Below are positions 3,016-34,302 of a stretch of 64,000 nucleotides of DNA, in pieces; the first letter of the stretch is position 1; each line of letters starts with the position of its first letter. The position numbers and the translations under genes are program-made. The DNA comes from Lachnospiraceae bacterium G41 (GTDB lineage: Bacteria; Bacillota; Clostridia; Lachnospirales; Lachnospiraceae): positions 1-64,000 of the forward strand of contig FNEU01000011.1 of assembly GCA_900100245.1 (NCBI GenBank), read 5' to 3'. The notes under the pieces are model-generated. The model saw nothing but the letters and a program-made list of their open reading frames with translations, was not told the origin of the DNA and did not search any database.

Positions 3016-3784
3016 CTTTGTCATCCTTCTTCGCTTCGGTGTAAAGGTACTGACCGTTGCGTTTTGTGGTAGGTCCGTAAGTGATTGCGTTTACGGGGCA
3101 GCGATGGAGGCATCCAAGGCAGAGGCTGCACTTTTTGTTAACCCATACGGGCTTGCCGTAATCCATCGAAATGGCCTGAGTCGGACACTGCTTTGCGCAG
3201 ATGCCGCAGCCTATACAGTCTTCGGAAACCTTAAAAGGCGAAGTTGTTCTGGTAAGATTGTAAGCCACTCTGGTAACTTTTGAAGCAGGCCAAACTCCGC
3301 GCAGATGATTATGGTATCCGCCGATTTTATTGTTGATTAAAAAGAGAACGTTTTTGAGTTCTTCTTCAGCTTTAAGATTCTTGGCTGCATTTTTGTCGGA
3401 ATTTTTTACGTTAAAAACAAGCGTATAGTTATCCACCATTCTTAAGGAGAATGATGCATTAAGGCCAATGCCTCTTTTAGCAAGAAGCTTGGAAAGCTGT
3501 ATGTCGGCGCCACCGGTTGCAACACCGCAGGTAGCTACCGAGTATGAATAATGCTTGCCGTATTTTTCTATGGACAGTGATTTTACGAATTCTTCGACAA
3601 CCGAAGGAAGACTCCAGTAGTAGATGGGATATACAAATCCGATTCTTTCGCCCTTTTTAAGCTTGAAATCAAACTGCATTTTTTTAACGCAGTCAGCCAT
3701 CGATACAACCTGTTCGCCGGTTTTCTTTGCAATTTCGTCTGCCACATGTTTGCTGTTACCTGTAGCTGAAAAATAAAAGATCAT
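3008..3784 (-). CDS. EFR1-type flavodoxin/ferredoxin protein
   Basis: The 258-residue protein joins a flavodoxin-like domain (SATGNS FMN loop at residues 6-11) to two 4Fe-4S ferredoxin motifs, CIGCGICAKQCP at 190-201 and CSLCLGCLHRCP at 219-230. This is the architecture of EFR1 family proteins, which are thought to move electrons in anaerobes; the physiological partner is not known. It is first in a run with fumarate hydratase and DUF5662. The ATG is preceded by GAGAGGGA with a 5-bp gap. Its promoter region carries a perfect inverted repeat (see 3806-3852). Confidence 0.9.
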   Translation of the reverse strand: MIFYFSATGNSKHVADEIAKKTGEQVVSMADCVKKMQFDFKLKKGERIGFVYPIYYWSLPSVVEEFVKSLSIEKYGKHYSYSVATCGVATGGADIQLSKLLAKRGIGLNASFSLRMVDNYTLVFNVKNSDKNAAKNLKAEEELKNVLFLINNKIGGYHNHLRGVWPASKVTRVAYNLTRTTSPFKVSEDCIGCGICAKQCPTQAISMDYGKPVWVNKKCSLCLGCLHRCPVNAITYGPTTKRNGQYLYTEAKKDDKDE

Positions 3785-33498: not shown

Positions 33499-33561
33499 CT
33501 TATTTTTTTATCATATATAAATTACTCTATATAACGCTTTATGTCAATAGAAATTATTTTC

Positions 33562-33777
33562 TTAACACACCTGCATAAATGCAGCATCCTCATAAAAGTC
33601 CGGTTGTTCCGATACAAAACGAACAACATCAGATGATTTAACTGTTGGATTTGCTTTTATATATTCCAACAATATTTCTAGTCGTGAAGGTGATTTTTGC
33701 GCGTAATGGCAAATTGCATCAACAAAATCTTTATACGAATCTTCTATGTGTTCCAATAATTCTTTTAACTCTGTCAT
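33562..33777 (-). CDS. Small protein of unknown function, second of a pair
   Basis: The 71-residue protein is mostly helical and acidic (MTELKELLEHIEDSYKDF at the start) and has no membrane segment. I do not recognise it. Its GGGAGG ribosome site overlaps the end of the preceding gene and the two genes are 2 bp apart, so translation is probably coupled. A toxin-antitoxin or immunity-like pair is conceivable but not shown. Confidence 0.7.
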   Translation of the reverse strand: MTELKELLEHIEDSYKDFVDAICHYAQKSPSRLEILLEYIKANPTVKSSDVVRFVSEQPDFYEDAAFMQVC

Positions 33778-33779
33778 AT

Positions 33780-33992
33780 TTAATCCTCCCGAATTGCTAT
33801 TCGCATATAAATATTATAATCTCCATACCCATGATTTTCAAAGAAATACCAATACGCTCGATTATCTATTCCGTACGAGGCATGTACTGCAAACGGAATA
33901 TTTATATATTTAAAATAATTGGTGCTAATCTCTCCATAAATCTTTGCATACTCTCTTTTGCTCATCAAGAAAGTATTATAAATGAACGCCAT
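33780..33992 (-). CDS. Small protein of unknown function, first of a pair
   Basis: The 70-residue protein is rich in aromatic residues (KIYGEISTNYFKYINIPF, then SYGIDNRAYWYFFENHG) and has no clear signal or membrane helix. I do not recognise the family. An AGGAGG ribosome site stands 4 bp before the ATG. The transcript has a structured leader in which this ribosome site may be masked (see 33993-34118). Confidence 0.7.
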   Translation of the reverse strand: MAFIYNTFLMSKREYAKIYGEISTNYFKYINIPFAVHASYGIDNRAYWYFFENHGYGDYNIYMRIAIRED

Positions 33993-34118
33993 TCAACCTC
34001 CTTCTGCAGGAGTTCGGCTCTTCTCCTGCTAATATTCTATTTGATTGTTAGCAGGAAAAACCGATAAACGGGCTATATTATCGGTGTCGTGAACCCGACG
34101 ATAGAAAATCCTGAATTT
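33993..34118 (-). promoter_or_regulatory. Structured leader RNA with alternative hairpins before the small gene pair
   Basis: Read on the minus strand, the leader holds a GTCG/CGAC stem (34086-34099), then ACCGATAA / TTATCGGT followed by TTTT (34060-34085, terminator-like). Next, segment 1 CCTGCTAA (34048-34055) can pair with segment 2 TTAGCAGG (34025-34032). Segment 2 extended as GCAGGAG (34023-34029) can instead pair with segment 3 CTCCTGC (34006-34012). Segment 3 can also pair as CTCCT with AGGAG (33998-34002), the ribosome site. Pairings 1:2 plus 3:4 would hide the site and 2:3 would free it. This is inferred from sequence only. Confidence 0.5.
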
Positions 34119-34124
34119 GATTGT

Positions 34125-34153
34125 ATCGTAACATCCGAAATAGCTTTATTCAA
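34125..34153 (-). promoter_or_regulatory. Candidate promoter of the small gene pair
   Basis: On the minus strand TTGAAT (34148-34153), a 17-bp spacer and TACGAT (34125-34130) would start a leader of about 126 nt. Confidence 0.5.
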
Positions 34154-34202
34154 TCCTAAAAGAGCAAAAAAATAAAGTTTGTGAAATATCACGAAAAGCA
34201 TC

Positions 34203-34261
34203 AAAAAAAGACACCCAAAAAGTCCTGTAAAGCATTGCAATTACTTACTTTTTTGAGTGTC
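34203..34261 (-). terminator. Long-hairpin terminator of the nadE-cysE genes
   Basis: GACACTCAAAAAAGT and ACTTTTTGGGTGTC (minus strand) form a stem of about 14 bp with a 23-nt loop, followed by T7. It ends the nadE-cysE transcript. Confidence 0.8.
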
Positions 34262-34302
34262 AAAGACTTGATGATTCAGTGGTGTCTAGCCCTTATGTTT
34301 TT

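Follow-up and report, generated by a model that had tools for sequence, protein, structure and literature searches.

A putative bistable leader RNA with five alternately pairing segments, found in Lachnospiraceae in front of a small gene pair and, more usually, of Rpn/YhgA-like genes

We analyzed 64,000 nucleotides of Lachnospiraceae bacterium G41 (contig FNEU01000011.1, positions 1 to 64,000; this whole stretch is 'the window' below), in which a leader RNA on the minus strand (33988..34118) runs from a predicted transcription start into the start codon region of a small gene pair. The first gene, ORF1 (33780..33992, minus strand; 70 aa, beginning ATGGC), has an alpha-beta-beta-beta structural model, and the second, ORF2 (33562..33777, minus strand; 71 aa), has an all-helical model and a ribosome site of its own, GGGAGG; neither has an assigned family. 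A candidate promoter, TTGAAT-17-TACGAT (34125..34153, minus strand), was read by eye and has similar counterparts in paralogous copies; it predicts a transcription start at about 34118, and it fell under the threshold of a consensus promoter scan and is absent from its output. The leader is built of short segments that can pair with their neighbors and that end in the ribosome binding site in front of ORF1, an arrangement suggesting a two-state switch of translation initiation.

Five segments follow one another in the leader. Segment 0, CAGGA (34109..34113), pairs with TCCTG (34056-34052) within segment 1, TTTTTCCTGCTAA (34048..34060), which was recognized from the sequence and an alignment of copies from the same genus. 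Segment 2, TTAGCAGGAGAA (34021..34032), can take segment 1 or segment 3 as its partner in that alignment, and segment 3, CTCCTGC (34006..34012), can take segment 2 or segment 4 according to the alignment and the swap test described below. Segment 4, AGGAGG (33997..34002), is the ribosome binding site by sequence and alignment. All lie on the minus strand, as do hairpin P1, GTCGGGTTCACGAC (34086..34099), in which 7 of 25 distinct sequences have changed both bases of a pair from UA to CG, and the variable hairpin P2 (34060..34085; inverted repeat I8). The original prediction, made from the letters alone, had described four segments with mutually exclusive pairings, and its complementary stretches lie where it placed them: CCTGCTAA (34055-34048) against TTAGCAGG (34032-34025), GCAGGAG (34029-34023) against CTCCTGC (34012-34006), and CTCCT against AGGAG of the ribosome site (34002-33998). 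These four segments and their exclusive pairings stand, but the chain has a fifth member, segment 0, that the prediction had left out.

The arms of helix 1:2 (helices are named by the segments they join) are the first inverted repeat listed by a repeat search. Folding of the 131-nt leader gives -41.4 kcal/mol (z = -4.05), and none of 200 shuffles is equally low. Its chain of linked helices, scored as the sum of stacking energies, reaches 56.0; the highest score among 50 dinucleotide shuffles, in which the last 22 bases were left in place, is 43.0. The closed state, 1:2 with 3:4, hides the ribosome site and is the computed minimum at -42.6 kcal/mol, and the open state, 0:1 with 2:3, frees it at -33.0 kcal/mol. 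Two further leaders, a paralog and a distant one, gave closed/open energies of -46.5/-35.9 and -48.9/-41.1 kcal/mol, so that the closed state is the minimum in all three, with the ribosome site unpaired at a probability of 0.00-0.03. Series of truncated transcripts of the same three leaders passed from 0:1, the energy minimum as soon as segment 1 emerges, to 1:2 and finally to 1:2 with 3:4.

The leader recurs within the genus and beyond it. A blastn search with 34160-33985 matched 10 of 31 genus genomes at E<1e-7, with at most four matches per genome, including a second match (89%) on contig C14 of the window's own genome, which carries three leaders (C19, the window copy; C14; C20). The copies share an architecture of TCAGGA, the hairpin GYCGG-ATTC-CCGRC, a variable hairpin, TTCCTGC, TTAGCAGGAGA, TCTCCTGC, AGGAGG and the start codon, and one subclass has GCAGGAA, TTCCTGC and AAGGA. 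Covariance model R1 found the leader in 20 of 195 relatives (19 of the 31 in the genus), and a second model, R2, returned 33 rows from 25 of 397 family genomes. By eye, 20 of these rows were judged leaders and 11 chance or unclear (L104, L109, L111, L112, L115-L121), and two (G014:C7) were left out; the 14 genomes accepted comprise two of the genus and 12 outside it, and in several of the latter no gene can be read before the end of the contig. When R2 was run on the genus itself, L126 and L127 were judged non-leaders, some weak rows were antisense echoes of true leaders, and we left out G022:C2, G029:C139 and further rows with E above ~1e-4. Both models match the window at 33989-34114, the window copy being in both training sets. 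Five copies (L077, L078, L079, L085, L096) have an extra short hairpin at the extreme 5' end, before segment 0, that the window copy lacks.

Pairing was scored in the genus alignment A4, which holds 26 copies (25 distinct) aligned to R1. Its fitting took account of helices 1:2 and 3:4 but of neither 0:1 nor 2:3; segment 2 was misplaced when the two subclasses were aligned jointly with MAFFT, and that alignment is excluded from the counts. With P1, the closed helices are paired in 95.9% of cells, against 38-63% in slid controls, and have six double-change pairs against a shuffle mean of 3.9 (12 of 500 shuffles as high). The open helices with P1 are paired in 96.9% of cells, against 36-56%. By helix, double-change pairs number one in P1, four in 1:2, one in 3:4, two in 2:3 and none in 0:1. 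Copy L079 reads CCTGTC / GACGGGAGA / TCTCCTGTC, so that segments 1, 2 and 3 are altered together and both 1:2 and 2:3 are therefore kept. G-U occurs in 15 of 32 pairs and A-C in 5 of 32 (22 versus 11 cells), as expected if the minus strand acts as RNA.

The same five-part logic, in different letters, stands in front of Rpn-like genes in other genera of the family. Relatives of the L048 protein, which is encoded behind one of the leaders, occur in 133 of 299 family genomes; among the matches listed we hand-picked 78 genes with an N-terminus, one or two per genome, took their upstream regions, and set start codons for 75. The pattern AGCA[TGA] ... [AC]TGCTT is present in 41 of 83 upstream regions (these 75 and eight model hits), and the counterpart of segment 0 is AAAGCAU. 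In a helix-chain test of 74 of these regions (L189, L230 and L264 lacked a start codon and L255 was too short), two linked helices reached p<=0.01 in 31 and three in 30, each against none of 39 other window genes. The swap test, an alignment-free comparison of own with swapped pairing energies, corrected for composition through shuffles of one region, gave z = -8.1 for 3:4 and -17.1 for 1:2 (both n=41), -10.1 for 2:3 (n=33) and -4.8 for 0:1 (n=41); none of 100 shuffles was as low for any of the four helices, and 0:1 was the weakest.

An alignment of 17 sequences from other genera, A7, in which L114 was retained despite a misplaced segment 1, is 96.1% paired in 0:1 and 2:3 (slid controls 35-49%) and 79.6% paired in an extended 1:2 with 3:4, where eight double-change pairs are found (0 of 500 shuffles). 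Model R3, built from A7 with the window's genus wholly absent from training, matched 28 of 77 Rpn-like upstream regions (L255, at 123 bases, left out) in 26 other family genomes, all 28 in gene direction; six of the 28 belonged to the training set. R3 also matched the window leader at 33990-34117 on the correct strand, at E 0.0044 over 173,448 bases searched, as the only match in the window at E<=1. A stricter genome-wide search found no match at E<=0.001 in the window's genome. Under strict filters, a class-wide search found R3 in one of 391 genomes (G057, five copies), which says little about absence elsewhere because it also failed to find the three copies in the genome of the window itself. 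Each of the four helices gains support from the pairing tests, 0:1 the least. Covariation in homologous leaders had been named beforehand as the test of the original prediction; examined within the genus, across genera and without alignment, it supports 1:2, 2:3 and 3:4, and the proposal that exclusive pairings hide or free the ribosome site gains support from folding, alignments and the swap test, all of them computational.

The usual gene behind the leader is Rpn/YhgA-like. We examined 34 sense copies from the genus, of which at least five are incomplete (L084, L085, L087, L095, L096). A gene of this type lies downstream in 23 and begins at the contig end in two more; one copy is cut by the contig end, and two are followed by Rpn remnants. 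The small gene pair stands behind three (genomes G000, G006 and G029, the last a remnant), and the other three precede a weakly RadC-like gene, a BrnT toxin and a DUF4160 gene; the leaders before BrnT and DUF4160 are cut after segment 1. Some of the Rpn/YhgA-like genes match the profiles TIGR01784, PF12784 or PF04754, and the remainder were assigned by eye from similarity. For the L048-type protein, which itself matches nothing in Pfam or NCBIfam, the link to Rpn comes from profile comparison only (hhalign probability 94%); two of its seven relatives match PF04754, weakly. Directly downstream of the window leader there is no Rpn/YhgA-like gene, ORF1 and ORF2 being there instead, so this copy is placed in the family by its RNA features only.

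According to PMC10327210, Rpn proteins of E. coli are toxins, each neutralized by its own C-terminal part, which is translated separately; one of them protects against certain phages. Of ten leader-linked Rpn-type genes that were scanned, nine carry in the 3' half an internal start codon accompanied by a sequence resembling a ribosome site, a count for which no chance rate was computed; in seven of the ten the codon is an ATG at codon 217-254. Two decayed loci, L063 and L087, have lost the 3' part of the leader and the Rpn N-terminus and retain the C-terminal part with its internal start, as though the antitoxin were kept. Elsewhere, an abiF RNA (RF03085; L113:1743-1779, 36.7 bits against a gathering score of 37) lies about 60 bases upstream of a leader on the same strand, and a T-box leader (L059:1603-1845, 88.2 bits against an Rfam gathering score of 93) lies near another.

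In the window, leader and gene pair sit on an insertion of about 740 bp (33559..34299) between a cysE-like gene and the SAM-riboswitch region of metK; the riboswitch itself (RF00162, 33401-33497) lies directly downstream of the insertion. Eleven relatives fully match the end of the cysE-like gene (L267-L277). In five (L267-L271; G006, G020, G013, G003, G023) the site is empty, with the riboswitch region within about a dozen bases of that gene; five others (G009, G015, G010, G029, G016) have 1.2-1.4 kb of other sequence there, and G008 has no riboswitch match within the available stretch. G006 carries the unit (34264-33562, 88%) behind another gene, which we take to be yvcK-like, and in the window's genome the 369 bases after the yvcK-like gene lack the unit, as judged by eye. 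Near the left edge of the unit lies a terminator-like inverted repeat with a T run, GACACTCAAAAAAGT...ACTTTTTGGGTGTC (34203..34261, minus strand), and the left edge of homology, 34264, is common to the G006 copy and six loci with Rpn-bearing units (L048-L050, L059, L062, L066). L066 has terminator-like repeats at 2120-2237 and 3359-3445, the second inverted and on the opposite side of its Rpn gene. In L084, L085 and L096 the leader breaks just after segment 1 (TTCCTG) and a different small gene follows (ORF2, BrnT, DUF4160), possibly marking a recombination point. A search for the unit in plasmids and phages found none.

Searches with ORF1 and ORF2 gave no usable match in Pfam, NCBIfam, PHROGs or PADLOC, and their AlphaFold models matched no PDB entry at E<=0.001. 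No ORF1 relative was found in viral contigs, and one, the near-identical G006 copy, in genome contigs. The window's genome also has two diverged paralogs of the small pair without a leader (G000:C11:82219 and C21:98389; L002, L003). The G029 locus, whose leader is cut after segment 1, retains ORF2 but only the tail of ORF1. The window would fit the plan of the Rpn loci, with ORF1 closed by the leader and ORF2 having its own site; G029, a single case and therefore weak, lost ORF1 and not ORF2. ORF1 and ORF2 may behave like toxin and antitoxin, with the leader controlling the pair.

We put at about three in four the probability that the window leader is a cis-acting bistable RNA controlling translation start, and a member of a Lachnospiraceae leader family whose usual gene encodes an Rpn/YhgA-like nuclease; comparative evidence argues that the two-state switch at the ribosome site is real. 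By default, 1:2 and 3:4 would be paired and the ribosome site closed. If the 5' domain, 0:1 around P1 and P2, were held, perhaps as a sensing domain, segment 2 would be freed from segment 1 and capture segment 3, and segment 4 would open. In Rpn-type genes, presumed here to be toxins with a short second product, the leader would close the start of the full-length toxin and leave the internal start of the antitoxin part open, so that toxin would be low and antitoxin on. In the window, a leader on a mobile unit would have been joined to ORF1 of a small two-gene cassette. In cells, such an RNA would be expected to switch between the two states, with OFF as the default.

Several results weigh against this reading. 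In the three leaders 7.8-10.6 kcal/mol separate the open state from the more stable closed one, and opening therefore needs a strong stabilizer or kinetics. The double-change pairs of P1, 0:1 and 2:3 show no excess in the genus (3 versus 2.0 in shuffles, 124 of 500 as high), 7 of 11 double-change cells sitting in P1, nor in A7 (2 versus 1.3, 130 of 500), and in the genus the case for 0:1 with 2:3 consequently rests on the cells paired and on the other tests. Helix 0:1 is paired in 98.4% of genus cells with zero double changes there and one double-change pair outside the genus, and A-C is not rarer than G-U in 0:1 (2 versus 1) or 2:3 (7 versus 5). Kinship among sequences inflates shuffle-based covariation, and in A7 a slide by -1 nearly equals 1:2 with 3:4 on covariation (0.130 versus 0.135). 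Between genera, P1 and P2 are poorly conserved, unlike a classical aptamer. Of the 74 upstream regions, 43 miss p<=0.05 in the chain test, and a four-helix chain is found in 37 and lacking in 37; it also appears in 4 of 39 control genes, three at p<=0.01, and the p-value for four helices thus fails to separate the two groups. Three helices at p<=0.01 occur in only 3 of 29 canonical TIGR01784 genes, and without composition control the 3:4 swap is positive even in Rpn-like upstream regions that lack the segment pattern. At E<=0.01, R3 missed 49 of 77 Rpn-like upstream regions, and of 22 leader sources tested in the genus it recovered 10 (19 at E<=1). All of the evidence, from the pairings and their conservation to family membership by model, the gene association and the insertion, is computational.

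Among rival accounts, the leader might be a kinetic safety device with no sensing of its own, its successive hairpins ending closed as in type I toxin mRNAs and its opening coming from RNA processing or a partner in trans. The order of pairing in the truncation series fits this, as do the region from segment 0 to segment 1, which is not conserved across genera, and the metastable ribosome-site hairpins of AapA3 (PMC6733600); a pure lock, however, has no need of 2:3, which is kept through sequence changes, and we regard this account as possible but on balance doubtful. If P1 and P2, closed by 0:1, instead bound a small molecule or the Rpn protein itself in autoregulation, one would expect several hairpins in a domain closed by a helix and, after it, an expression platform, as is seen here, and P1 does covary. 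Yet no conserved unpaired core is seen outside the genus, nor an aptamer core conserved between genera, Rfam gives no match, and the window leader has no Rpn gene behind it, all of which makes a riboswitch or protein-binding leader unlikely.

That the blocks are DNA-level repeats, recognition sites of a nuclease or part of a mobile repeat with the RNA fold as a by-product, would suit a multi-copy mobile unit linked to PD-(D/E)XK 'transposase' genes and broken right behind segment 1 in three loci. It is improbable given that segment 4 is a ribosome site directly before the start codon in a region that covaries with the preceding bases, that all 28 R3 hits share the direction of the gene, and that G-U exceeds A-C overall on the minus strand, though not in 0:1 and 2:3. 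We give least credence, and very little, to transcription attenuation at P2, whose stem the original prediction had called terminator-like. The arms (34085-34078 / 34067-34060) and a following TTTTT in the window are indeed there, but the terminator scan makes no call, the T run in the 26 aligned copies is short (mostly three to five T, usually begun by A), and the conserved pairing target is the ribosome site, so the stem is probably not a terminator. As a candidate for a leader-peptide attenuator, an ATG open reading frame between segments 2 and 3 was seen by eye in L007, L048, L049 and L050, not in the window copy, and this reading was rejected.

Returning to the bistable switch, a wider and more tentative extension, which we would sooner doubt than adopt, is that a family-wide RNA switch keeps phage-defense Rpn nucleases translationally silent until infection or stress and, acting as a reusable 'safety catch', is passed on with its promoter to unrelated toxin-like genes such as those of the window; silencing would then break when transcription or the 5' domain is disturbed. 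A two-state leader of this kind would explain how a large group of self-toxic Lachnospiraceae defense nucleases stays off. It would also place control by RNA on top of the intragenic toxin-antitoxin arrangement of rpn genes and offer a natural example of an alternating five-segment switch. The leader may also mark toxin-like genes of no assigned family, such as ORF1.

The original prediction's remark that the leader matches no recognized class agrees with our Rfam 15 search of the window, in which no family reached its gathering score over the leader; in relaxed searches of six and twelve loci the sole overlap with a leader was U6 in L122 (20.7 bits against a cut-off of 44, E 0.54). A 1:2/2:3/3:4 layout is also that of translational riboswitches and amino-acid attenuators. 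The leader resembles them in its mutually exclusive helices ending at the ribosome site and differs in that the window copy has no known aptamer, leader peptide or Rfam hit. A literature search, with word searches of the available text of PMC10327210, PMC5350276, PMC11109978 and PMC2864571, turned up no leader of an rpn gene, which does not establish absence from print, and the leader family is apparently undescribed. The AapA3 toxin mRNA of H. pylori (PMC6733600) likewise hides its ribosome site in successive hairpins, but its final lock is a long-distance 5'-3' interaction and its antitoxin an antisense RNA, whereas the lock proposed for the window copy lies within the leader itself, its pairing alternating from one segment to the next along a chain of five. 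With the E. coli rpn genes and their intragenic antitoxin the family shares its usual Rpn/YhgA-like gene and, in nine of ten genes scanned, an internal start; here, in contrast, a leader precedes the gene, and the words leader, hairpin, untranslated and riboswitch were not found in the available text of PMC10327210. Like the mobile or repeat candidates described in PMC11109978, the motif is multi-copy and lies near transposase-like genes; unlike them, it keeps a single orientation to the gene and ends on the start codon.
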